From Nitrospirota bacterium (GTDB taxonomy: Bacteria > Nitrospirota > Thermodesulfovibrionia > Thermodesulfovibrionales > UBA1546): DNA of 53,258 nucleotides. Of the stretch, positions 2,749-46,583 are shown piece after piece (position 1 is the stretch's first letter; each line of letters starts with the position of its first letter). The stretch is taken from contig JAPLLK010000025.1 in the NCBI GenBank assembly GCA_026387575.1, positions 1-53,258 of the forward strand. Direction: 5' to 3'. Both the position numbers and the translations under genes were made by a program. The notes under the pieces were generated by a model. It was not told the origin of the DNA and did not search any database. It saw nothing but the letters and a program-made list of their open reading frames with translations.

Positions 2749-3408
2749 TCAGTACTGATAAAGGACAGAAACCTTTGCCCTTTCATCGCTGTTATTAGGA
2801 TTTTCCGCATCTATCTCAATAGTATAAAGATACGGCTTGCTCTGCACTGTCACTTCTCCTGAGTTTGAAGATACTACACCGCCTTTAGTTAACCCTTCAT
2901 CTCCGCCGGAATTGCCTTCAACTGTGTCCACTATTTTTGCGTAAACCCTGTATGTGGTAGTTGTTCCAAGATCAAATTGCATATCGTAAGTGGTGTTGGT
3001 CCCTGGGGTAATAGTCACCGAACTGTCACACCCTGTCCAGCATAATGTTGGGAGGTTTAACTTAGCCGCCAGCCCTGTATAAGCAGCATAAGTAGAACAT
3101 GCTGCGGCTCCGCTTCTGGTGCATCCGACAGGCGTAGTAACAGATGCATTAAGACTAAGCCCTACCGCATTCAATTTATTAATAAACGCTTGTTGGTTTG
3201 CAGATTCCCCTCTCAGTGAAACAAGCTGATAGGTAACTTCACTGCCGCCTATTCCGGCTTCAAGGGCTGTTTTATACCTCTTTTGAATACCCGAAGTCTT
3301 AGTCCCTCCTACCAGCATATATATCAATGCTGTCATGATTGAAAGAGAGATTGCAGCGAGAATCAATACCATCACAAGGGCAATGCCTTTTTCGTTGTCA
3401 TGATGCAT
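2749..3408 (-). CDS. PilX-like type IV pilus assembly protein (ORF-track start at 3468 lies in a heptamer repeat; preferred start 3408)
   Basis: Short leader MHHDNEKG followed by IALVMVLILAAISLSIMTALIYML; sits in a minor-pilin operon. Confidence 0.7.
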   Translation of the reverse strand: MHHDNEKGIALVMVLILAAISLSIMTALIYMLVGGTKTSGIQKRYKTALEAGIGGSEVTYQLVSLRGESANQQAFINKLNAVGLSLNASVTTPVGCTRSGAAACSTYAAYTGLAAKLNLPTLCWTGCDSSVTITPGTNTTYDMQFDLGTTTTYRVYAKIVDTVEGNSGGDEGLTKGGVVSSNSGEVTVQSKPYLYTIEIDAENPNNSDERAKVSVLYQY

Positions 3409-3469
3409 GATGCATGATGTATGTTTTTTTATCTTGTATCTTGTATCCTGCATCCTGTATCCTGCCATG
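3399..3469 (-). repeat. Composite heptamer repeat: (AC/ATACARGAT)n + A-rich spacer + (ATCATGC)n
   Basis: Minus strand: GGCAGGATACAGGATGCAGGATACAAGATACAAGATAAAAAAACATACATCATGCATCATGCATCATGA. Confidence 0.85.
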
Positions 3470-3471
3470 TT

Positions 3472-11074: not shown

Positions 11075-12097
11075 ATGATTAAGAAGAAGGCGAAATACAT
11101 TGTTGCTGTTGTCGGCGCAACAGGCGCGGTCGGGAATGAAATGATTGCAACTCTTGAGCAAAGGGGCTTCCCTGTTGAAAAACTCAGGCTCTTTGCCTCA
11201 GAGCGCTCAGAGGGTAAAAACCTTGAATTTCAGGGCAGTGAAATCCCTGTTGAGAGTTTAAATGAATCTTCCTTTAAGGGGATTGACATTGCGCTTTTCT
11301 CCGCAGGTGCTGAAAGGTCAAAGATATGGGCTCCGATTGCGGCAAAATCAGGATGTGTTGTGGTTGATAATTCAAGCCAGTGGAGGATGGACCCCGAGGT
11401 GCCGCTGGTTGTCCCTGAGGTTAACAGCCATGACCTTAAATGGCATAAGGGGATTATCGCAAACCCGAACTGCTCAACGATTCAGATGGTTGTGGTATTA
11501 AAACCTATACATGATGCTGCAAAGATAAAGAGGGTTGTTGTAACAACGTTCCAGTCTGTCTCAGGCACAGGCAAGAAGGCAATGGATGAACTGCTACAGC
11601 AGACAGCTGACATCCTGAATTTCAAGGAGGCAAAATGCAATGTCTATCCGCATCAGATCGCATTCAACGTGCTTCCTCACATAGATAAGTTCCTTGAAAA
11701 CGGCTATACGAAAGAAGAGATGAAGATGGTGAATGAGACAAGAAAGATAATGGGGGACAATTCAATAAGGCTCACTGCGACAACAGTCCGCGTTCCTGTT
11801 TTCAGATGCCACTCTGAGAGCCTGAACATAGAGACAGAGAAAAAGATTACAGCGAATGAGGTAAGGGCAGCGCTTTCTAAAGCTCCGGGCATTGTTGTAT
11901 TTGATGCGCCTGAGAAGAATGTCTATCCCCTTCCTGTGGATGTTGCAGGCAAAGACGAGACTTATGTCGGCAGGATAAGGGCGGATGAGTCAATAGAAAA
12001 CGGGATAAACCTGTGGATTGTTGCTGATAATCTCAGAAAAGGCGCCGCTCTGACTGCTGTACAGATAGCTGAAAAGCTTGTGGAAATGGCAGGGTAA
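11075..12097 (+). CDS. asd: Aspartate-semialdehyde dehydrogenase
   Basis: VAVVGATGAVGNEMIATLEQRGFPVEKLRLFAS...NSSQWRMDPEVPLVVPEVN...NPNCSTIQMVV. Confidence 0.96.
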   Translation: MIKKKAKYIVAVVGATGAVGNEMIATLEQRGFPVEKLRLFASERSEGKNLEFQGSEIPVESLNESSFKGIDIALFSAGAERSKIWAPIAAKSGCVVVDNSSQWRMDPEVPLVVPEVNSHDLKWHKGIIANPNCSTIQMVVVLKPIHDAAKIKRVVVTTFQSVSGTGKKAMDELLQQTADILNFKEAKCNVYPHQIAFNVLPHIDKFLENGYTKEEMKMVNETRKIMGDNSIRLTATTVRVPVFRCHSESLNIETEKKITANEVRAALSKAPGIVVFDAPEKNVYPLPVDVAGKDETYVGRIRADESIENGINLWIVADNLRKGAALTAVQIAEKLVEMAG

Positions 12098-12104
12098 AAC
12101 AGAT

Positions 12105-12187
12105 GCAAGATTCAAGATTCAGGATTCAGGATTCAGGATTCAGAATAAAAAATCATGCATCATGTATCATGCATTGTGTATCATGAC
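12105..12187 (+). repeat. Composite heptamer repeat (ATTCAGG)n + A-rich spacer + (ATCATGC/ATCATGT)n
   Basis: gcaagattcaagattcaggattcaggattcaggattcagaataaaaaatcatgcatcatgtatcatgcattgtgtatcatg. Confidence 0.9.
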
Positions 12188-14042
12188 GATCAAGCTCGCA
12201 ACAGGAGAAAGCATTTCCGCAGCAGACGGTGAAAGCATCCTCTCTGCGCTCAAAAAGAAGGGGATATATCTTGTTGCTTCATGCGGCGGTAAAGGGACAT
12301 GCGGAAAGTGCCGTATAAAAATTCACTCCGGGAAATACAGGACATCCGCATCAGGCAAACTTTCTCAGGCTGACAAAGAGAAAGGGATTGTCCTTGCCTG
12401 TCAGACATTTCCTGAAAGCGGCATCTCAGCAGAGATACTTGAAGAGGCGCGACTTGTTGTAGGAGACAGGATTGCCCTTGCAAAAGCAAAAGACCTTTCA
12501 GAGCTTCTCAGGTCATTTGACAGCGAGATAACACCCATTGTAAAAAGGCTTAACATAAAACTTCCTCCTCCTACGATAGAGGATCACATAAGCGACCTTG
12601 AGCGGCTGAAAAGGGAGCTTGAGATAAAAGGCATCAAAGGGATGAGGTTCTCCCAGACATTCATATCATCAATGGCTGATGACCTGAGGAAGCACAACTG
12701 GGAAATACATCTTGCTTATGTTGACGGACCCGAGGCAATCTTTGTGACATCTGACAAGCAAACCGCAAGATACGGAATTGCGGTTGATATCGGCACAACA
12801 ACGATTGTCGTATATCTCATTGACCTTTCTGACGGAAAACTTGTGGATGTGGGTTCAACATACAATTCACAGATAAGATACGGCGACGATGTTATCACAA
12901 GGATAGTCCATGCAACAGAAGGCGGCGGGCTTGAAGAATTAAGGGGAACTGTTACAGATGATATAAACAATATAGTTGAGACTGTTATTGAAAGGCATGG
13001 CATAAATAAAGAGCATATAGAATGCGCGGTAATCTCAGGGAATACAACCATGTCTCATATCTTCTGGGGGCTTGACCCCGGGCATATCAGGGAAGAGCCG
13101 TACATACCGACTGTAAATTCCTTCCCGCTGTGGAAGGCCGGGACAGCAAGGCTTCACATAAATAAACAAGCTTCTGTTTATACTCTGCCGTGCGTTGCAA
13201 GTTATGTCGGAGGCGATATTGTCTCTGGTGTGCTCGCCTCAAAAATGCACAGGAACCATGAAACAGCCTTATTCATGGACATAGGCACAAACGGAGAGAT
13301 TGCCATAGGCAATAATGAATGGCTTATGACAGCGGCATGTTCTGCGGGCCCCTGCTTTGAAGGAAGCGGGATAAAACACGGAATGAGGGCGACCGAAGGT
13401 GCAATAGAGGCTGTAAAGATTGCTCCTGATACATTTGAACCTTCCATCGCTGTTATCGGCAATACTGTGCCAATCGGCATATGCGGCTCAGGAATGATAG
13501 ACGCAATATCAGAGATGTTCATTGCAGGTGTCATAGACCGGAAGGGGAAATTTATCCGTGAAATAAAAACAGGCCGCATAAGAGAGGGAGACGAAGGCGC
13601 AGAATTTGTCCTCCATAAAGGGGTAAAAGATATTGTCCTGACAGAAGTTGACATTGAGAATATCATGAGGGCAAAGGCAGCGATTTATGCAGGGATATCA
13701 TCGCTTATAAAAGAGATTGGGTTCACGCTGGATAATATAGAGCGTGTATATATTGCAGGAGGGTTCGGCAACTACTTGAACGTTGACAGGGCTGTAATAA
13801 TCGGAATGCTCCCTGACATTCCAAGAGAAAAGTTCAGATTTTTAGGAAACACATCAGTTGCAGGGGCGTATCTGTGCCTACTCTCAGAAAAACTCAGGAA
13901 AGAGGCGGAGGATATTGCCCGGAAGATGACATACATGGAGCTTTCAGTCTCAAGGAATTTTATGGACGAATATATGTCGGCGCTTTTTCTGCCGCACACC
14001 GATCTGACCCTATTCCCGACGGTAGAAAAACTACTTAAATGA
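12183..14042 (+). CDS. ASKHA-domain / 2Fe-2S ferredoxin (DUF4445-type, corrinoid-activating-like) protein
   Basis: MTIKLATGESISAADGESILSALKKKGIYLVASCGGKGTCGKCRIKI (2Fe-2S) plus GIAVDIGTTTIVVYLIDL...ALFMDIGTNGEIAIG...AGGFGNYLNVDRAVIIGMLPD; ORF-track start at 12078 runs through the repeat. Confidence 0.87.
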   Translation: MTIKLATGESISAADGESILSALKKKGIYLVASCGGKGTCGKCRIKIHSGKYRTSASGKLSQADKEKGIVLACQTFPESGISAEILEEARLVVGDRIALAKAKDLSELLRSFDSEITPIVKRLNIKLPPPTIEDHISDLERLKRELEIKGIKGMRFSQTFISSMADDLRKHNWEIHLAYVDGPEAIFVTSDKQTARYGIAVDIGTTTIVVYLIDLSDGKLVDVGSTYNSQIRYGDDVITRIVHATEGGGLEELRGTVTDDINNIVETVIERHGINKEHIECAVISGNTTMSHIFWGLDPGHIREEPYIPTVNSFPLWKAGTARLHINKQASVYTLPCVASYVGGDIVSGVLASKMHRNHETALFMDIGTNGEIAIGNNEWLMTAACSAGPCFEGSGIKHGMRATEGAIEAVKIAPDTFEPSIAVIGNTVPIGICGSGMIDAISEMFIAGVIDRKGKFIREIKTGRIREGDEGAEFVLHKGVKDIVLTEVDIENIMRAKAAIYAGISSLIKEIGFTLDNIERVYIAGGFGNYLNVDRAVIIGMLPDIPREKFRFLGNTSVAGAYLCLLSEKLRKEAEDIARKMTYMELSVSRNFMDEYMSALFLPHTDLTLFPTVEKLLK

Positions 14043-14595: not shown

Positions 14596-14697
14596 GAGGG
14601 AGAAAGTGAGATGACAGGATACAGAATAAAGATTATATGCCTTTTCGTTTTTTTTATTTTTTCTCTGTCTGCTGTCTGCTATCTACTGTCTACTGAT
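14581..14697 (+). repeat. Composite heptamer repeats (AGAGTTA)n, ACAGGATACAG, (GTCTGCT / CTACTGT)n
   Basis: aaagttaagagttaagag ... atgacaggatacagaata ... tctgtctgctgtctgctatctactgtctactg. Confidence 0.75.
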
Positions 14698-15627: not shown

Positions 15628-16720
15628 TTTTGATTTTTACCTGCCGGAAGGACTGATCGCAAAAAAACCTTCTGACAAAAGAGACCTCTCAAGGCTTTTA
15701 GTGCTTCACAAAAACGGCAAAATAGAGCACAGAATCTTCGGTGCTCTCCCCGACTATCTTAATGAAGGTGACCTGCTTTTACTTAATAATACCAAAGTTT
15801 TTCCGGCTAGACTTACAGGGGCAAAGCCTACAGGAGGAAGATTTGAATTTCTGCTGGTAAAAGAAATCGGTGTTGACAAGTGGGAAATACTATCAAAAGG
15901 GAAATACAGAGGGGGAATATCAATAGCAGAAGGATTTTCAGCAGACATAGAAAACGGGACAGCCCGGTTTTCGTATTCAGGAGACTTCATGGAAAATGTG
16001 TGGAGATGCGGAGATATGCCTTTGCCGCCGTATATAAAGCGCAAACCGGAGCCGGTTGACAGAGAATGGTATCAGACAGTATATGCAGAAAAAGAAGGGT
16101 CCATCGCAGCTCCGACAGCCGGAATGCACTTTACCGGAGAACTTATAGGCAAGATAAAGGACAAAGGCGTGAATGTCAGGTGCCTGACACTTCATGTAGG
16201 GATAGGGACATTCAAACCTATAAAAACAGAGAATTTAAGTGAGCATTCTATGGATGCAGAATATTTTGAGATAGGGAAAGAGATTATTGAAGATATAAAA
16301 AGAACAAAAGCCTTTGGCAAAAGAGTCTTATCTGTCGGAACCACAACAACTCGGGCTATAGAGGGGTATGTCAGCGGCAAATGGGCAAAACATGATACAA
16401 GATGCATGATACAAGATGCAGGTGACAAGATACAGGATACAGGACACAGGATTCAGGATAAAAAAATCATGCATCGTTCACCATGCATTGTAAATCATAA
16501 ATCTCAAAACATATGCGGTTATACAAACATCTTCATCTGTCCGGGTTATGAGTTCAGGGTTGTTGACTCCCTTATAACTAATTTTCACCTCCCCCGTTCA
16601 ACCCCGCTTATGCTGGCTTCTGCCTTCTGCGACGCCGAAAAACTGAGCGGCGCATACAGCGTTGCTGTGAGTCAAAAATATAGATTTTTCTCCTACGGCG
16701 ATGCTATGCTTATCCTGTGA
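15614..16720 (+). CDS. queA: S-adenosylmethionine:tRNA ribosyltransferase-isomerase (contains repeat-encoded insertion)
   Basis: MKAADFDFYLPEGLIAKKPSDKRDLSRLLVL...GSIAAPTAGMHFT...VGIGTFKPIK...GYEFRVVDSLITNFHLPRSTPLML...YRFFSYGDAMLIL. Confidence 0.95.
   Translation: MKAADFDFYLPEGLIAKKPSDKRDLSRLLVLHKNGKIEHRIFGALPDYLNEGDLLLLNNTKVFPARLTGAKPTGGRFEFLLVKEIGVDKWEILSKGKYRGGISIAEGFSADIENGTARFSYSGDFMENVWRCGDMPLPPYIKRKPEPVDREWYQTVYAEKEGSIAAPTAGMHFTGELIGKIKDKGVNVRCLTLHVGIGTFKPIKTENLSEHSMDAEYFEIGKEIIEDIKRTKAFGKRVLSVGTTTTRAIEGYVSGKWAKHDTRCMIQDAGDKIQDTGHRIQDKKIMHRSPCIVNHKSQNICGYTNIFICPGYEFRVVDSLITNFHLPRSTPLMLASAFCDAEKLSGAYSVAVSQKYRFFSYGDAMLIL
16390..16504 (+). repeat. Composite heptamer repeat embedded in frame in queA
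   Basis: catgatacaagatgcatgatacaagatgcaggtgacaagatacaggatacaggacacaggattcaggataaaaaaatcatgcatcgttcaccatgcattgtaaatcataaatc. Confidence 0.9.
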
Positions 16721-24927: not shown

Positions 24928-24937
24928 TGCTTAATAA

Positions 24938-25003
24938 GTTAAGAGTTGAAAGTTTAGAGTTAAGAGTTTCCTGACTTCTAATTTTAAACTTTTAACTCTT
25001 GCT
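24938..25003 (-). repeat. Heptamer-type repeat with dyad symmetry (AACTCTT/AAGAGTT) between ctpA and exonuclease genes
   Basis: gttaagagttgaaagtttagagttaagagtttcctgacttctaattttaaacttttaactcttgc. Confidence 0.75.
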
Positions 25004-26373: not shown

Positions 26374-27510
26374 CTATCTCTTCTTTAACCACTGCATAGG
26401 GTCAAGCGGTTTCCCCTTATATCTTACCTCAAAATACAGGCCCGGCGCATTCAGGGTTCCTGATTCCCCGACCTTGCCTATGGCCTGTTGTCTTTTTATT
26501 ATATCTCCAACCTTATAAAAAATCTCGGCTAAATTTGCATATAGGGTATGATAGCCTTCCCCATGACTTATTATAACAAGCTGGCCGTAACCTTTGAACC
26601 AATCGGCAAATACAACTTTACCGCTATGCACTACCTTTGCTGAGGTATTGTCATCTGCTTTAATATGTATGCCGTTTCTGAATACCGGCGTGTTGAACTG
26701 AGGGTCTTTCTGCGCCCCGTACGGGATTACAACCTTCCCGTTGACAGGCCAGTCCAGCTTCCCCTTCAGATCATGAAAGCCCTTTGCGGCATATGCCTCA
26801 GCTTCCTCAGAATGCCTTATTATCTCCATAAGCCTGTTGGAAGCCTCTTTTAATTCCTTCAGCATTTTTTCGTAAGAAGATTTTTCCTTTCTTACAGAGG
26901 ACAGAAGCATTTCTTTGCCCTTTTTCTTTTCTGCGATTGTCTTCTCGTTTGCCTGTATCTTTTCCTCGCTCTTTTTTAGTTCGGCGTGCAGCGTCTTTAA
27001 ACGGCTTTCCTGCTCCGCAAGATTTTTTATAGTCTCTTTATAGCTGTCAAGCATCTTATGGTCGTACCCTGCCAGTTCCTTTATATACCTCCACCTTCTC
27101 ATCAGCTGAGCTATGTCTTCCGAGGTTGAAAGCAGAATCACAACATCGCCTGAATACCCATACCTCTGCATAACGCGAAGTTTCCTCTTAAGCCACTCCG
27201 CCTGCCTTTCGAGCTTTGCTCTGTTTACCGATATGTCTGCCTCAACCTTGCGTATCTCATTTTCCGTAACTTTCCGCTTTCCAATGTATTTTCTTAACTC
27301 CGCATGGGTCTGGCTGAGGTCCTTATTCGTCCTGTCGAGTTCTTCAAGGACCGAATGCTCCATCTTCTTGGCTTTCTCAAGTTTTTCCTTGTGGGTATCT
27401 ATTTCTTTTTGAAGGTTCTTAAATTCTTCCTTCGGATCTTTTGCAGCAGAAGCGATATTAGTGAACAGTGAACAGTGAATTGTAAACAGTAAGATTAATG
27501 CAAGGCGCAT
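26374..27510 (-). CDS. envC: Murein hydrolase activator EnvC-like (coiled coil + degenerate M23 peptidase); preferred start 27510
   Basis: Long coiled coil then KLDWPVNGKVVIPYGAQKDPQF...GIHIKADDNTSAKVVHSGKVVFADWFKGYGQLVIISHGEGYHTLYANLAEI; upstream of ftsX/ftsE. Confidence 0.9.
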   Translation of the reverse strand: MRLALILLFTIHCSLFTNIASAAKDPKEEFKNLQKEIDTHKEKLEKAKKMEHSVLEELDRTNKDLSQTHAELRKYIGKRKVTENEIRKVEADISVNRAKLERQAEWLKRKLRVMQRYGYSGDVVILLSTSEDIAQLMRRWRYIKELAGYDHKMLDSYKETIKNLAEQESRLKTLHAELKKSEEKIQANEKTIAEKKKGKEMLLSSVRKEKSSYEKMLKELKEASNRLMEIIRHSEEAEAYAAKGFHDLKGKLDWPVNGKVVIPYGAQKDPQFNTPVFRNGIHIKADDNTSAKVVHSGKVVFADWFKGYGQLVIISHGEGYHTLYANLAEIFYKVGDIIKRQQAIGKVGESGTLNAPGLYFEVRYKGKPLDPMQWLKKR

Positions 27511-27573
27511 GATGCATGATGCATGATGCATGATAAAAAGATGTCCTGTGTCTTTGTATCCTGTATCTTGCAT
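27461..27573 (-). repeat. Composite heptamer repeat: (ATACAGG)n + T-run + (ATCATGC)x4 + (TTCACTG)n
   Basis: Minus strand: ATGCAAGATACAGGATACAAAGACACAGGACATCTTTTTATCATGCATCATGCATCATGCATCATGCGCC...TTTACAATTCACTGTTCACTGTTCAC. Confidence 0.92.
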
Positions 27574-27579
27574 TTTTTT

Positions 27580-28458
27580 TCAGGAGAATCTTATTCTTCC
27601 CAGTGCAATTACAGCGCCTCCTATGCCTAACAGCAATCCGACAATAGGAAGGGCAGGAAAAGTTTCAAATGGGAACACAAGGATTTTCAGTATTGGGATA
27701 GTAGCGGTAACCTTATAGAACAGCACATGGTAAAATGCGAGCGCGGCTGCCATGCTTGCAATCCCGCCGAACATCCCGAGCACGCTCCCCTCTATAACAA
27801 AGGGCGCACGTATGAATCCCCTTGTTGCGCCAAGAAGTTTAAATGTTTCTATTTCTTCTTTTCTCCTATAAAACGCAATCTTTATGGTGCTGTAACATAC
27901 AAAAATCACTCCTGCCGACATTATGATAATAAGAGATAAACTGCCTGCCTTTGCCATTCCTTTGATAGAGTGGATGGAATTAAGGAATTGTTCGCCGTAC
28001 TCCACTTCTGCAATGCTTTTTATTTTTTTAATCTCTGCGGCAAACTTTTTAACGCTTGCGATATTGACAGATTCTTTCTTAAGCTTAATCTCAATTGATG
28101 CGGGGAGAGGGTTTTCGTCAATGCCTTCAAGAATATAATCTGCATTCTTTAAAACGCCTTTTAATTCCTCCAGCGCCTTATCCTTTGCTATATATCTTGC
28201 CTGTTCAACGGCATTATTCTTTTTCAGTTGTGCAATTATGCTTCCTGTTTCCTGCTCTGACAGCCCGTCATTCAGGTAAAGCATTACGGAGAACCTTGCT
28301 GGAAGTCTTTTTGTTGCAAGGTCTATGTTATAAACAACAAAAAGCGTGAGTGTAATCATAAACAGCCCTGCCGCTATTGTCAGTACTGAGAGGAGATTTA
28401 TCCACTTTTCACGCCATAAACTCTGGAGGGCAAGTCTGAACGAATATAAAAGATACAT
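27580..28458 (-). CDS. ftsX: Cell division protein FtsX
   Basis: FRLALQSLWREKWINLLSVLTIAAGLFMITLTLFVVYNI...RRKEEIETFKLLGATRGFIRAPFVIEGSVLGMFGG; next to ftsE. Confidence 0.92.
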   Translation of the reverse strand: MYLLYSFRLALQSLWREKWINLLSVLTIAAGLFMITLTLFVVYNIDLATKRLPARFSVMLYLNDGLSEQETGSIIAQLKKNNAVEQARYIAKDKALEELKGVLKNADYILEGIDENPLPASIEIKLKKESVNIASVKKFAAEIKKIKSIAEVEYGEQFLNSIHSIKGMAKAGSLSLIIIMSAGVIFVCYSTIKIAFYRRKEEIETFKLLGATRGFIRAPFVIEGSVLGMFGGIASMAAALAFYHVLFYKVTATIPILKILVFPFETFPALPIVGLLLGIGGAVIALGRIRFS

Positions 28459-35000: not shown

Positions 35001-35888
35001 ATGGACATCAAGACCTATCTCAGAGAGAAAAAGGAACTTATAGATTCATTTCTTAAAGAATACTTTTCTCCGAATTTTATTCCGACTGTCTTAAAAGACT
35101 CCATCACTTATTCCCTATCTGCGGGAGGAAAAAGGATAAGGCCGATACTTTGCCTTGCTGCGCATGAGGCATGCGATGGAGATTCTGAGGACATACTTGC
35201 CTTTGCATCCTCAATAGAACTCATTCACACATATTCATTGATACATGATGACCTTCCTGCAATGGACAATGATGATTTAAGGCGCGGCAAGCCGACAAAC
35301 CACAAGGTATTTGGAGAGGGCATGGCGATACTTGCAGGAGATGGCCTTCTTACAGAGGCGTTTTATATGATGGCAAATTCGCTCTCAAACAAAAACATCA
35401 AAAACACGGCATTAATAAGGGCAATAAAAGATATTGCCTTTACAGCAGGCATTCATGGAATGGTCGGAGGCCAGGCGCAGGATCTCCTCTCTGAAAATGC
35501 AGAGCCTGACAAAGAGACTCTCTCTTTTATTCACAAACATAAAACAGGAGCGCTTATATCAGGCTCTTTAAGGGCAGGCGCAATCCTTGCAAATTGCGGC
35601 AAGCCTTCCCTTAATGCAATCACAAGATATGGAGAAAACATCGGGCTTGCCTTTCAGGTGATAGATGATATACTTGATGTAGAGGGTAGCACGGATGAAC
35701 TCGGCAAGACCACAGGCTCTGATGCAAGAAGAAAGAAGATGACTTATCCATCAATATACGGTCTTGAAAATTCCAGAAAAAAGGCTGAAGAGTTGATAGC
35801 AGAGGCAGTCTTTTCCATTAAAGACTTCTCAGCTAAGGCAGAGCCTTTAAGAGAGATTGCCAGATACATGCTTGAGAGAAGAAGTTGA
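35001..35888 (+). CDS. ispA: Polyprenyl (farnesyl/geranylgeranyl) diphosphate synthase
   Basis: SAGGKRIRPILCLAAHEA...SLIHDDLPAMDNDDLRRGKPTNHKVF...IGLAFQVIDDILDVEG; upstream of dxs. Confidence 0.92.
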   Translation: MDIKTYLREKKELIDSFLKEYFSPNFIPTVLKDSITYSLSAGGKRIRPILCLAAHEACDGDSEDILAFASSIELIHTYSLIHDDLPAMDNDDLRRGKPTNHKVFGEGMAILAGDGLLTEAFYMMANSLSNKNIKNTALIRAIKDIAFTAGIHGMVGGQAQDLLSENAEPDKETLSFIHKHKTGALISGSLRAGAILANCGKPSLNAITRYGENIGLAFQVIDDILDVEGSTDELGKTTGSDARRKKMTYPSIYGLENSRKKAEELIAEAVFSIKDFSAKAEPLREIARYMLERRS

Positions 35889-37771
35889 AACTCATAAAAA
35901 AAATAAAATCCCCTGATGACCTGAAAACTCTGTCAGTTGAGGAGCTGAACAGCCTTTCGGAAGAACTGCGGGAAATAATAGTAGAACGCGTATCAATTAA
36001 CGGCGGACATCTCGCATCAAACCTCGGCACTGTAGAGCTTACACTGGCGCTTCAGTATGTATTCAATTCCCCTGTTGACAAGATTGTATGGGATGTAGGT
36101 CACCAGTCATATACGCACAAGCTTATCACGGGGAGGTATGAAAAATTTGAAACTATCAGAAAGTATAAAGGCATCTCAGGATTCCCTAAGATAGATGAGA
36201 GCGTTTACGATGCCTTTGGAACAGGACACAGCTCAACATCAATATCGGCAGCATTAGGAATCATAGAGGCGCGTGATAAAAAAAATGAGGCGTTTAAAGT
36301 TCTGGCTGTTATAGGCGACGGCGCACTGACTTCCGGCCTTGCGTTTGAAGGGCTGAACCACGCCGGACATCTGAAAAAAGACCTCATCGTAGTGCTGAAT
36401 GACAATGAGATGTCAATCTCAAAAAACGTAGGGGCATTGTCCGCGTATTTAAACAGGATACTTACAGGAGATCTATACCAGCGATTTAAAAAGCAGACGA
36501 AATCATTTCTTGAGGGCATTCCTAAGTTTGGCGATCAGGTTACAAAGATTGCACAGAAGGCAGAAGAAACACTGAAAGGGCTATTCCTTCCGGGAATATT
36601 GTTTGAAGAACTTGGCATTAACTATGTAGGCCCCATAGACGGACATGACATTAAACTGCTGATAGAGACCTTCAGAAATATTAAAAACTCAACAGAGCCC
36701 ACTTTAGTCCATGTCATCACCAAAAAAGGCAAGGGATATGAGTTCTCCGAAAAAGATCCCTGCATATTTCACGGAGTAGGGCCGTTTGAAATAGAAACCG
36801 GGTATTCTGTAAGCGATAAAGATGCGCTTTCATACAGTCAAATATTCGGCAGAGCAATTACTGAGCTTGCCGCAAACGACGAAAGAGTCATTGCCATCTC
36901 AGCGGCAATGAGAGAAGGCACAGGGCTTGAATGTTTTGAAAAAAAATTTCCCGACAGATTTTATGACGTTGGCATAGCAGAGCCTCATGCAGTAACATTC
37001 GCCGCAGGGCTCGCAGCGCAGGGATTGAGGCCTGTGGTCGCAATATATTCCACTTTCCTTCAGCGCGGTTACGATGAGATAATCCATGATGTCTGCCTCC
37101 AGAATCTGCCTGTTGTATTTGCGATTGACAGGGCAGGCATAGTTGGCGAGGACGGCCCGACACATCAGGGAGTTTTTGACATCTCTTATTTAAGGAATAT
37201 CCCTAATCTTACTGTCATGGCGCCAAAGGATGATCTGGAACTCAAAGCCATGCTTGAACTTGCTTTAAAACACAACGGGCCCTCGGCAATAAGATATCCA
37301 AAAGGGAAGATACAGCCATCAACCATCAGCCATCAACCATCAGCTTTTGATATTGGAAAAGCAGAGGCATTAAAAGAAGGCTCTGACATAGCGTTGATAG
37401 CAATAGGCAATGCTGTCCATCCTGCGCTTGGTGCAGCAGACAGGCTTGAAAAAGAGGGGATAAAGGCATCAGTCATAAATGCAAGATTCATAAAGCCCAT
37501 TGATAAGGAACTCATCTTTTCAGTAGCAAAAAATATAAAGCGGATAATAACAATTGAAGAGAACATGATTGCCGGAGGTTTCGGAAGTGCAGTCCTCGAA
37601 TATCTGAACAGCATGGATATTCCTGATATAAAGATTAAAATCCTCGGCATACCTGATGAATTTGTAGAGCAGGGCTCACAGGCTATATTGAGGAAGAAAT
37701 ACGGGATTGATGAAGAGGGGATTTATCAGACCTGCAAGGCATTTCTCTCAACGCTCACATCAGTTCATTGA
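35885..37771 (+). CDS. dxs: 1-deoxy-D-xylulose-5-phosphate synthase
   Basis: VWDVGHQSYTHKLITGR...AVIGDGALTSGLAFEGLNHAG...YDVGIAEPHAVTFAAGLAAQGLRPVVAIYSTFLQRGYDEIIHDV. Confidence 0.97.
   Translation: MKLIKKIKSPDDLKTLSVEELNSLSEELREIIVERVSINGGHLASNLGTVELTLALQYVFNSPVDKIVWDVGHQSYTHKLITGRYEKFETIRKYKGISGFPKIDESVYDAFGTGHSSTSISAALGIIEARDKKNEAFKVLAVIGDGALTSGLAFEGLNHAGHLKKDLIVVLNDNEMSISKNVGALSAYLNRILTGDLYQRFKKQTKSFLEGIPKFGDQVTKIAQKAEETLKGLFLPGILFEELGINYVGPIDGHDIKLLIETFRNIKNSTEPTLVHVITKKGKGYEFSEKDPCIFHGVGPFEIETGYSVSDKDALSYSQIFGRAITELAANDERVIAISAAMREGTGLECFEKKFPDRFYDVGIAEPHAVTFAAGLAAQGLRPVVAIYSTFLQRGYDEIIHDVCLQNLPVVFAIDRAGIVGEDGPTHQGVFDISYLRNIPNLTVMAPKDDLELKAMLELALKHNGPSAIRYPKGKIQPSTISHQPSAFDIGKAEALKEGSDIALIAIGNAVHPALGAADRLEKEGIKASVINARFIKPIDKELIFSVAKNIKRIITIEENMIAGGFGSAVLEYLNSMDIPDIKIKILGIPDEFVEQGSQAILRKKYGIDEEGIYQTCKAFLSTLTSVH
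37316..37343 (+). repeat. Four tandem heptamers (CCATCAA/CCATCAG) inside dxs
   Basis: CCATCAA CCATCAG CCATCAA CCATCAG. Confidence 0.9.
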
Positions 37772-39787: not shown

Positions 39788-40936
39788 TCACAACGATAAT
39801 GCCTTTATAAGGCTCTCAATATCTTCAGCAGTATGAGCGGCTGTTACTGTTATTCTTATCCGAGGCTCTCTTACAGACGGTGGTCTTATTGCAGGGGCTA
39901 AGATGCCGTTTTCCATAAGATGTTGCGATATTTGCAGTGCTTCTTCAACTGTTCCTGTCCTGACAGGGATAATCGGAGTTTCGCTTCCCATTATATCGTA
40001 CCCGAGTTTTGTAATTCCGTGAACAGCCTGTTCTCTGTTTGTCCACAGTTTATTAACGAGTTCTGGTTCTTTTTCTATAACCTCTAATGCGGCAATTGAG
40101 GCTGCGGCAACGCATGAAGGCAGGGCTGTGGAAAATATAAAACTTCTTGCAGTATTCAGTATCCACTCTATAGTGTCTTTGTTTCCGGCAGCGAATGCTC
40201 CGAATGAACCCAGTGCCTTTGAGAAAGTTCCCATCTGTATAATCCACGGCTCTGATTTTATGCCAAAATGCGCGAGTGCGCCTTTCCCCTGACCAAGAAC
40301 GCCTGTGCCGTGAGCATCGTCTATATAGAGCAGAAAGTTAGGAATTGAGAGTGTAGAGTTAAGAGTTAAGCAAAGCTCATAAATATCTTTTAACGGAGCG
40401 ATATCGCCGTCCATGCTAAACACAGAATCTGTGATGATTATTTCCCTTTTTACTTTTTCTTTTTTTATCAATTCTGAAAGATGCCCTATGTCTTTATGTC
40501 TGTAAATTATTTTCTTTGCCCTGCTCAGCCTGCATCCGTCAACTATGCTTGCATGGTTGAGTTCATCGCTGAATATAACATCTCCTTCATCAGCAATTGC
40601 AGGGATTATCCCTGTATTTGCCGAATAGCCTGAATTGAAGATAAGGGCTGATTCTGTTCCCTTGAATTCTGCTGTCTTTTTTTCAAGTTCATCGTGAAGG
40701 ATGCTTCCTCCGCAGAGAAGCCTTGATGCGCCTGAGCCGAAACCGAATGTCTCAATAGCTTTCCTTGAGGATTCAATCAAGCGGGGTTGGCTTGCAAGTC
40801 CGAGATAGTCGTTTGATGAGAAATTTATGTAGTTTTTCCCGTTCATTGATATTCGTGAACCCTGTGGAGAATTGTGGTTTTTAATCTCACGCAGGAGGTT
40901 TTTTTCTTTAAGGCGGATGAGTGATTCGGAGAACAT
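39788..40936 (-). CDS. bioF: 8-amino-7-oxononanoate synthase
   Basis: NFSSNDYLGLASQPRL...FGSGASRLLCGGSILHDELE...LLYIDDAHGTGVLGQGKGALAHFG...GTFSKALGSFGAF. Confidence 0.95.
   Translation of the reverse strand: MFSESLIRLKEKNLLREIKNHNSPQGSRISMNGKNYINFSSNDYLGLASQPRLIESSRKAIETFGFGSGASRLLCGGSILHDELEKKTAEFKGTESALIFNSGYSANTGIIPAIADEGDVIFSDELNHASIVDGCRLSRAKKIIYRHKDIGHLSELIKKEKVKREIIITDSVFSMDGDIAPLKDIYELCLTLNSTLSIPNFLLYIDDAHGTGVLGQGKGALAHFGIKSEPWIIQMGTFSKALGSFGAFAAGNKDTIEWILNTARSFIFSTALPSCVAAASIAALEVIEKEPELVNKLWTNREQAVHGITKLGYDIMGSETPIIPVRTGTVEEALQISQHLMENGILAPAIRPPSVREPRIRITVTAAHTAEDIESLIKALSL
40337..40374 (-). repeat. Degenerate heptamer run (AACTCTT-type) inside bioF
   Basis: Minus strand: GCTTAACTCTTAACTCTACACTCTCAATTCCTAAC. 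Confidence 0.75.
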
Positions 40937-41524: not shown

Positions 41525-42141
41525 GAAAAGTTCAAAGTTCAAAAACTGACAACTCGTCACTTGTTACTCGTCACTCGTTAATCATTTTAGCATTCTGTAT
41601 CCTGTATCTTGCATCTGCTGCGGTTGTTCATGCAAGCGGCGGAGGTGAAGAAGGCACTTCTGTAATACTGAAAGATTACCTCTGGAAGATTATAAATTTT
41701 GGAATTTTGTTTTTTATCATTTTCAAATTCGGCAAAAAGCCTCTACAGGATTTTCTGAAAAAGAGGACAGAACTTATAGAGAAGAGCCTCAAGGAAGCAA
41801 GGGAGGCAAAGGAACTAGCCCAGAAAGCCCTCGCAGAGGTTGAAGAAAGGCTTAAAGCAAGGGACAGAGAAATAGGGGAAATTGTTTCATCAGCAAAAGA
41901 GTCGGGAGAAAAGGAGAAAGGGCGGCTTATTGAAGAAGGCAGCAGGATGAAAGAAAAGATACTTGAGCAGGCAAGGACTAATATAGCGTATGAGGTTAAA
42001 AGGGCTAAGGAAACAATAATGGAAGAGGCATCTGCCATTGCAATAGAACTTGCAGAAAAAAAACTTAAAGAAAAACTTACTAAAGAAGAGCAGCTTAAGC
42101 TGCTTGAAGAATCTATAGCAAAGATAGAAGGCAAAAATTGA
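41521..42141 (+). CDS. atpF: F-type ATP synthase subunit b
   Basis: WKIINFGILFFIIFKFGKKPLQDFLKKRTELIEKSLKEAREAKELAQKALAEVEERL; operon position. Confidence 0.9.
   Translation: MRKVQSSKTDNSSLVTRHSLIILAFCILYLASAAVVHASGGGEEGTSVILKDYLWKIINFGILFFIIFKFGKKPLQDFLKKRTELIEKSLKEAREAKELAQKALAEVEERLKARDREIGEIVSSAKESGEKEKGRLIEEGSRMKEKILEQARTNIAYEVKRAKETIMEEASAIAIELAEKKLKEKLTKEEQLKLLEESIAKIEGKN
41527..41617 (+). repeat. Composite heptamer repeat (GTTCAAA)n + (CTCGTCA)n + (TGTATCC)n at the 5' end of atpF
   Basis: agttcaaagttcaaaaactgacaactcgtcacttgttactcgtcactcgttaatcattttagcattctgtatcctgtatcttgcatc. Confidence 0.88.
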
Positions 42142-44196: not shown

Positions 44197-45066
44197 ATGC
44201 CGACTTTAAGAGATATCAAGAGAAGGATAAAGGCTGTTCATAGCACCAGCAAGATAACGAAGGCTATGAAGATGGTTGCTGCTTCCAAGTTCAGAAAGGC
44301 ACAGCAGAGGATGTTTGAGCTGAGGCCATATGCTGACAGGATGAGCGCTGTACTTTCAAGTCTTGCAGGCAGCGCGGAGAGCGAGATACATCCTCTGCTT
44401 GCGGTAAGACCCAGAAAGAATGTGGACATCATTGTTCTTACAAGCGACAGGGGGCTCTGCGGCGCCTTTAATTCTAATATACTGAGGGTTGCTTCAAAAC
44501 ACATATCGCATCTGAGGAAAGAGGGATTTGAAGTTAATGTCAGCGCTATCGGAAGAAAGGCGGTTGACTATTTCAAAAGGAGAAATGTCCCTCTGAAAAA
44601 AAGCTGGGTAGGGATTTCAGGAAGAATTTCATATGCAAATGCCCAGGAAATAGCAACGGATATTATCGAGCGCTATACAAATGAGGCCACCGATGAAATT
44701 ATTCTTGCATACAATGAGTTTAAATCAGTTGCTGCACAAAAGGTTGTTGTCACTAGGCTTCTCCCATTGGCGTCAATAGAGGCAGCGGTGGGAACACTGC
44801 CTGTTTTTAATTTCATATATGAACCTTCAAAGGAAAATATATTCAATAATCTGCTTCCTAAGAATGTTGAGATACAGCTTTTCAGGGCATTGCTTGAATC
44901 ACAGGCATCGGAAGAGGCTGCAAGGATGTCCGCAATGGAGAATGCGACAAAGGCTGCTAATGATATGATAAACAGTCTGACGCTGCAGTTTAATAAGGCA
45001 AGACAGGCATCAATTACCAAAGAACTTATGGATATAGTCGGCGGCGTTGAGGCTTTAAAAGGGTAA
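44197..45066 (+). CDS. atpG: ATP synthase gamma subunit
   Basis: MPTLRDIKRRIKAVHSTSKITKAMKMVAASKFRKAQQ...TSDRGLCGAFNSNI. Confidence 0.96.
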   Translation: MPTLRDIKRRIKAVHSTSKITKAMKMVAASKFRKAQQRMFELRPYADRMSAVLSSLAGSAESEIHPLLAVRPRKNVDIIVLTSDRGLCGAFNSNILRVASKHISHLRKEGFEVNVSAIGRKAVDYFKRRNVPLKKSWVGISGRISYANAQEIATDIIERYTNEATDEIILAYNEFKSVAAQKVVVTRLLPLASIEAAVGTLPVFNFIYEPSKENIFNNLLPKNVEIQLFRALLESQASEEAARMSAMENATKAANDMINSLTLQFNKARQASITKELMDIVGGVEALKG

Positions 45067-45085
45067 TTTGAGATTTGAAATTTGA

Positions 45086-46531
<1,446 letters not shown>

Positions 46532-46583
46532 AAAATAAAGTTAGAAGTTCAAAGTTGAAAATTGAAGGTTAAGGAATAAAAAA

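Follow-up and report, generated by a model that had tools for sequence, protein, structure and literature searches.

The start of the envC gene in this Nitrospirota bacterium, which lies within the window (the whole stretch of 53,258 nucleotides that was analysed), is occupied by heptamer repeats and raises the question of whether the start codon and export signal of a murein hydrolase activator can have been assembled from repeat DNA, as the initial annotation of the locus had supposed. The reading that we consider likely is that the envC heptamers represent one copy of a dispersed, family-specific and non-autonomous element, here called R1, which has been copied through the genome, together with a local array. 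Taken as a feature of envC or of signal peptides, the repeat had been framed too narrowly: the same dispersed element was found inside many genes. Judged from the orthologous sequences, a signal peptide built partly from repeat DNA nevertheless appears right in kind and recurrent, the presequence being largely repeat DNA here and again in orthologs, whereas the part of the proposal that concerned the start codon is doubtful. Most likely, the locus reflects a dispersed, selfish or neutral, coding-tolerant hairpin element to which local heptamer expansion was added, and export signals would easily make use of such DNA. The statistics given here cover 807 kb of this genome (G000), 446 kb of its sister G001 and hit-centred stretches of four more genomes; R1 matches are those of a covariance model built from 19 copies.

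The envC locus

The EnvC-like protein is encoded on the minus strand by an ORF of 399 aa (26374-27573) that carries an M23 domain (Pfam Peptidase_M23, E=2.9e-26) and a coiled coil and is preceded by ftsE and ftsX; its export signal was judged from residue features. The product is termed 'EnvC-like' since its score against the NCBIfam EnvC model, 122 bits, lies below the model cut-off of 270 bits. Orthologs were present in 61 of the 61 relatives searched. The upstream ftsX (27580-28458, minus strand; FtsX_ECD, E=1.6e-18; TIGR00439, E=3.7e-64) ends 6 nt ahead of an ATG at 27573, and two further ATGs in the envC frame lie at 27531 and 27510; the initial annotation had taken only the last of the three into account.

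Read along the minus strand, an R1 copy (27507-27573) makes up the n-region of the EnvC presequence. It was matched by cmsearch at 27513-27576 with 48.7 bits (E=6.6e-8) and is degenerate, with a T-rich spacer. Its left arm (27544-27571), read from the sequence as the CARGATD-type heptamers GCAAGAT, ACAGGAT, ACAAAGA and CACAGGA, belongs to the same element and had gone unmentioned before; it is followed by the spacer CATCTTTTT (27535-27543), which in the alignment stands where other copies have their A-tract, by the right arm (ATCATGC)x4 (27507-27534; TRF: 4.0 copies of a 7-mer, 100%) and then by GCCTTGCATTAATCTTACTGTTTACAATTCACTGTTCACTGTTCACTAATATCGCTTCTGCT. The right arm, which holds the ATGs at 27531 and 27510, had been described as four units running into a further ATCATG; the array itself is present, with four units in all, one fewer than claimed. 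Beyond it, a second heptamer array (27457-27492, minus strand), with the units TTACTGT, TTACAAT, TCACTGT, TCACTGT and TCACTAA (TRF: 27460-27490, 4.4 copies of a 7-mer, 79%), codes for LLFTIHCSLFTN of the hydrophobic core, which bears out the earlier statement that the hydrophobic segment MRLALILLFTIHCSLFTNIASAA, present in the translation, is coded in part by TTCACTG-type heptamers. This array, which makes up much of the hydrophobic core, is probably a local expansion of the conserved c-region TTCACTGACACTG.

As to the start codon, the ATG 6 nt past the ftsX stop is kept in nearly all members of the genus and family, including genomes that have no heptamers there, and in several envC orthologs it is the sole in-frame ATG. 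Both facts favour a start at 27573, ahead of the array, and speak against a start codon built by the repeat. We think that envC starts at this position and that the repeat lengthens the n-region, which would then have a net charge of -1; an internal start at 27510 (MRLAL...) is possible and would yield a signal of a more classical kind. A start codon made by the repeat is better exemplified by the RACo-like gene, which has an R1 copy upstream (12094-12186, plus strand; 66.6 bits) whose last ATCATG unit coincides with the conserved start codon of MTIKLATGE (12094-12193 in the window); a similar copy is found at its orthologs in G001 and G008 and is absent in G004, G006 and G010. Such cases might point to a selected translation-start or regulatory module, in which AGGA heptamers, an AT-rich spacer and ATG heptamers would form a portable ribosome-binding site plus start or a regulator site, a kind of role that has been proposed for the TAACTGA repeats of Beggiatoaceae (PMC4679880). 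Copies do occur at gene starts in sense orientation, and the array offers an ATG in every frame. However, about half of the in-ORF copies lie deep within coding sequences (genes were called simply as longest ORFs, and positions relative to gene starts are approximate), the start of envC that is conserved among orthologs precedes the array, and the host genes have no functional class in common, which leaves this explanation very unlikely.

Architecture of the R1 element

R1 is a dispersed, oriented quasi-palindrome of about 50-125 bp with the layout (CARGATD)n - A-tract - (ATCRTGH)n. Arrays of period 7 numbered 26 in a 321-kb sample of this genome and 93 in 807 kb of it, as compared to 0 or 1 and 0-10, respectively, for any one of the remaining periods between 4 and 13; since period 7 alone is enriched, the envC heptamers do not represent a chance occurrence. 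The same enrichment is what plain heptanucleotide microsatellites would give, with slippage in steps of 7 nt expanding local seeds into arrays that gene ends and signal peptides can accommodate, and with no mobile element involved: period 7 is enriched in many bacteria and attributed to polymerase slippage (PMC4692102; Mrazek in PMC4679880), and the TTCACTG array of envC may be an expansion of this type from TTCACTGACACTG. Slippage would not, however, lead one to expect arrays paired in inverted order about an A-tract, one strand polarity throughout, changes at only two positions out of seven, or 90-bp copies that are nearly the same in unrelated genes. Adjacent arrays in this genome were mutually inverted, with a mean distance of the unit to the reverse complement of its neighbour of 1.92 against a null value of 3.08 (0 of 5000 draws as low), and the same was seen in G001 (2.06 against 2.89, p=0.002); in neither genome were neighbouring heptamer arrays direct copies of each other. 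Within the main-family unit CANGATN, the mismatch between adjacent units was 0.35 at position 3 and 0.29 at position 7 and at most 0.03 elsewhere (the unit-variation filter ignored positions 3 and 7 and allowed 20% mismatch at the other positions), and not spread over head-to-tail units as mutations in a microsatellite would be. Furthermore, 26 of the 27 classifiable composites showed a single strand polarity: their arms share the purine/pyrimidine class on one strand, which gives the element a direction. Slippage as the whole answer was rejected on the inversion, polarity and copy tests, and as an explanation it is quite unlikely.

Of every 7 positions in the paired R1 arms, 2 are mismatched. 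Ladders of period 7, with 3- and 2-bp steps and regular mismatches, were obtained when two well-preserved copies outside the window were folded (z -3.6 and -4.1); the four copies in the window folded less well (z -1.65 to -2.96), that of envC having the value of -1.65. No match at the Rfam gathering score was found within the window, so that a known RNA family was set aside as an identity for the element there.

Copies within genes

Among 116 R1 copies in the six genomes, 81 lie in ORFs, 79 of them in the direction of the gene. The corresponding counts are 34 of 51 copies in ORFs for G000 and G001, with 33 of the 34 in gene direction, and 46 of 47 in-ORF copies in gene direction for the stretches of G008, G002, G011 and G013, where many G008 copies sit in paralogous genes and are hence non-independent. 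The peptide read from in-gene copies resembles (I/M)QDxxYxIQDKKNxxSCI(M/V)xxxS, and the hosts are core genes, such as those for TsaD, QueA, RimO (three copies), RsmE, TrpE, LpxK, KdsB, ThiL and YbeY. We propose that R1 copies survive mainly between genes, or within genes where they keep the frame, are free of stops in the gene direction and are permissively placed, permissive places presumably being surface loops, gene ends and presequences.

Stop codons are insufficient as the sole cause of the orientation bias, since intergenic copies have open frames on both strands (the sense frame in 12 of 17, the antisense frame in 10 of 17). The antisense reading of the right arm codes for the hydrophobic ILYLVSC, and the encoded peptide may therefore add to the bias; this is suggested by few cases, namely the two opposite-strand copies among the 81, both of which sit at hydrophobic N-termini (L102:286 and L290).

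In the window, an in-frame copy lies inside queA (16388-16500, plus strand; 55 bits), at about residues 300-341 of the longest ORF. Inserts in this loop among the orthologs measure 6-126 nt, every length being a multiple of 3, and distant members of the order have a loop of 7-9 aa. The AF2 model of QueA is mostly confident elsewhere and falls below a pLDDT of 50 over residues 262-296, the longest such segment, which is as expected of a disordered loop. Likewise, the TsaD loop carries repeat inserts of 42-147 nt in nearly every genome of the family, from different heptamer and palindrome families and always a multiple of 3 in length, and 39-60 nt of ordinary, non-repeat sequence in G009 and the outgroups in the order. 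C-rich palindromes of the type CCCCCCTTGGCAAGGGGGGG also occur at this insert site in tsaD of G003 and G012 (L225 and L226), with the frame kept. In G001, rimO (L199:7171-8685) holds three in-frame copies, the second of which has counterparts at that position in G011 and G013.

Copying between loci and distribution among genomes

Six copies with unrelated flanks match each other almost perfectly for about 90 bp, a stretch that contains a further short palindrome, GTCTCCTCAGGCGACTCGCCGAGGCGAGGA, within the left arm. These copies sit in tsaD, trpE, a cinA-like gene, a PMT-like gene, rimO of G001 and L099 (GTCTCCTCAGGCGACTCGCCGAGGCGAGGA at L100:5237-5268, L132:10701-10732, L099:10950-10981, L105:218-248, L146:19628-19656 and L199:7405-7435). 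Their presence in unrelated genes is best explained by duplication of the whole unit, and we infer from it that the element has been copied. In G001, neither a Y1 transposase (Y1_Tnp) nor a reverse transcriptase was matched despite at least 87 R1 copies, the maximum in the genus: a MITE or REP mobilised by a Y1 (RAYT) enzyme lacks its cognate transposase there, and neither RAYT nor reverse transcriptase can be an obligatory mobiliser. At the tsaD and queA sites neither a target-site duplication nor fixed terminal repeats were evident by eye, and the ends of the inserts are ragged heptamers.

From genome to genome, the tsaD and queA sites are occupied by different heptamer families, which agrees with repeated insertion wherever a loop is permissive and also with rewriting in place. 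In the latter case, one ancestral insert per site would have been repeatedly rewritten to other heptamer families by fold-back and template-switch synthesis in 7-nt steps. The occupation of these sites by different families in most genomes of the family, several with the same inverted layout, agrees with such a process, as does G009, which has no R1 among the matches listed and no insert at the sites checked. However, dispersed near-identical copies require copying between loci, and hairpin folding of the alternative families gives a mixed picture (z -5.8 to +0.1). Rewriting as the explanation is unlikely, if less so than slippage.

By the covariance model, R1 numbers at least 54 copies in this genome, at least 87 in G001, at least 97 in G008 and at least 50 in G002, and at least 5-40 in most other members of the family; none was among the matches listed for G009 and G012. 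Genomes beyond the family have almost none (at least 12 weak matches in G018, at least 2 in G025 and at least 1 in G041), and arrays of the related unit ATCYTGY were seen in 24 of 296 genomes of the phylum. The complete genome of the family member G009 has no R1 and no repeat inserts at the envC, queA, tsaD and RACo sites, and offers a natural comparison for finding the copying machinery. Carriage on plasmids was not indicated, a consensus-like 69-bp R1 query giving no match in PLSDB. The sequences come from metagenome-assembled genomes, which might raise the suspicion of an assembly or binning artefact; the same architecture in genomes assembled independently in different studies (GWF2_44_13, CG1_02_44_142, SURF_35, KR13 and others) and the reading frames kept in core genes make this extremely improbable.

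Turnover of the envC presequence

Comparison of the envC orthologs within the genus revealed a mean identity of 46% in the presequence (gaps counted) and of 89% in the first 300 nt of the mature part. Alignment to a non-repetitive ancestor, which would have spoken against a repeat origin, was not seen within the family, where congeners carry mostly other heptamer families: CACGATA followed by ATCTTGC heptamers (MHDTRYTIHDTRKRQ + LYLASCILYLASIFLF) in G006, G011, G013 and G015, the GTCAGTG family in G004 and G005, CTGTCTG and TTCACTG types in G007 and G012, and CTTGCTG heptamers in G008. A repeat-derived signal is thus not confined to this genome, as had been asked; the distant members of the order have ordinary envC signal peptides with no repeats. 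Conserved in the presequence are only its start (ATG, usually ATGCA, just past the ftsX stop) and its end, F-T-D/N-x-A-x-A. At the heptamer insert sites in envC of G003, G012 and G008 (L015, L016 and L021), C-rich palindromes of the type CCCCCCTTGGCAAGGGGGGG were observed.

We propose that heptamer DNA can occupy, and repeatedly reoccupy, whatever lies between the conserved start and the cleavage region (FT-D/N-x-A-x-A), since all that an export signal requires is a short polar or basic segment with a hydrophobic one behind it. The inverted arms would tend to provide this order: the peptide of the sense arm is polar (QDTRYKI, HDTRYTI), and that of the complementary arm is less polar or hydrophobic (IMHHASC, ILYLVSC). 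Many unrelated sequences can act as secretion or targeting signals, 20-30% of the random sequences tested (as cited in PMC7463930). In this respect envC offers a case from nature in which sister species have rebuilt export signals out of repeat DNA and yet share a mature protein of about 90% identity, and this has a bearing on how little constraint signal peptides are under.

A bolder and rather doubtful reading is that an undescribed DNA-writing process lays down and rewrites inverted heptamer cassettes, their direction being set by the encoded peptide, and so yields ready-made signal peptides. Heptamer 'words' that differ from genome to genome would then stand at the same codons of the same essential genes under one grammar, with five fixed and two free positions and arms inverted around an A-tract, the sense orientation being used in cytosolic loops and the antisense orientation, with its hydrophobic second arm, in export signals. 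The envC arrays of G006, G011, G013 and G015 are in the antisense orientation.

Relation to known repeat elements

By analogy, the dispersed element that we favour appears to behave like the Rickettsia palindromic elements (RPEs), but with arms made of heptamer arrays. RPEs, of 105-146 bp, lie in frame within conserved genes (PMC2229807, PMC3767692), and a host guanylate kinase is made and active with the insert (PMC2229807). Like RPEs and the Wolbachia palindromic elements, R1 is a dispersed element of about 100 bp that appears palindromic and is intergenic or fused in frame in conserved genes, where it adds a short peptide; orthologs may share the insert locus, and no transposase of its own is present (PMC2229807, PMC3767692). 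The likeness, which rests on multicopy dispersal and in-frame insertion in conserved genes, is one of kind, and descent is not claimed. Unlike these elements, R1 has arms formed by degenerate heptamer arrays of variable number, its layout is shared by several unrelated heptamer families, three copies can occur in one gene (rimO of G001), and some export signals are built in part from its copies. Moreover, its host is a family of Thermodesulfovibrionales, whereas that of the RPEs is an intracellular alphaproteobacterium.

The period of 7 is shared with TAACTGA of Beggiatoaceae (PMC4679880) and with the GGGNATC-type repeats of Xanthomonas and GGGGAYT of Nostoc (PMC4692102). As with R1, these intergenic heptamer repeats are abundant near start codons and occasionally form in-ORF arrays in a stop-free orientation (PMC4679880, PMC4692102), and in Xanthomonas GGGNATC variability is confined to certain positions (PMC4692102). 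They are, however, mostly direct arrays of a single unit between genes, whereas in R1 two inverted arms flank an A-tract, and the copies lie largely within genes and strongly favour one direction. Elements with four GGACCGG heptamers in Geobacter metallireducens are likewise multicopy, within and between genes, but have another unit and are called a predicted regulatory RNA, and the accessible part of that source describes neither inverted arms nor frame retention (PMC2700814). In the coding tandem repeats of Borgs, too, recent repeat DNA makes new protein segments and is enriched in proteins with signal peptides, but the in-ORF units there are direct and multiples of three, as opposed to heptamers in inverted pairs (PMC9879509). 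The literature searched, outside of which most subscription papers lie, contained no description of heptamer elements in Nitrospirae, of repeat-built signal peptides or of a palindromic coding repeat built from heptamers. Palindromic repeats that code for protein have been described mainly in Rickettsia and Wolbachia, and R1 represents an independent, larger case in a free-living lineage; with inserts by the dozen in essential genes and numerous relatives sequenced, it makes origin, tolerance and copying mechanism testable by comparison.

Other heptamer-coded N-termini and minor arrays

In the window, a further R1 copy (3395-3470, minus strand; 59.8 bits) occupies the beginning of a gene whose N-terminus is PilX-like and whose ORF had no Pfam or NCBIfam match. 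Heptamers were also found at further hydrophobic N-termini. A heptamer array (14650-14695, plus strand) codes for the hydrophobic core of the N-terminus of a SpoIID-family protein (gene from 14611, plus strand; SpoIID, E=5.5e-26), and arrays at 41552-41616 (plus strand) code for the N-terminal hydrophobic segment of an atpF-like protein (gene from 41521, plus strand; ATP-synt_B, E=3.4e-21). Elsewhere in this genome, the same was seen at L101:5077, at L102:286, in a DacA-like protein (L127:9848-10933) and in a TPR lipoprotein-like one (L130:166). Of the 12 ORFs whose first 180 nt hold an array, 8 had a hydrophobic N-terminal segment, as compared to 136 of 479 (Fisher p=0.007), a weak and partly circular association, since the array itself contributes to the segment and the sample of 12 ORFs is small.

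Additionally, a CAGCCATCAACCAT heptamer array (37313-37347) lies within the coding sequence of dxs (35885-37771, plus strand), and AT-rich heptamer arrays of the AGTTAAG, AATTTGA and AAAGTTA types are located near gene ends at 24934-24968, 40336-40370, 45058-45092 and 46538-46572.
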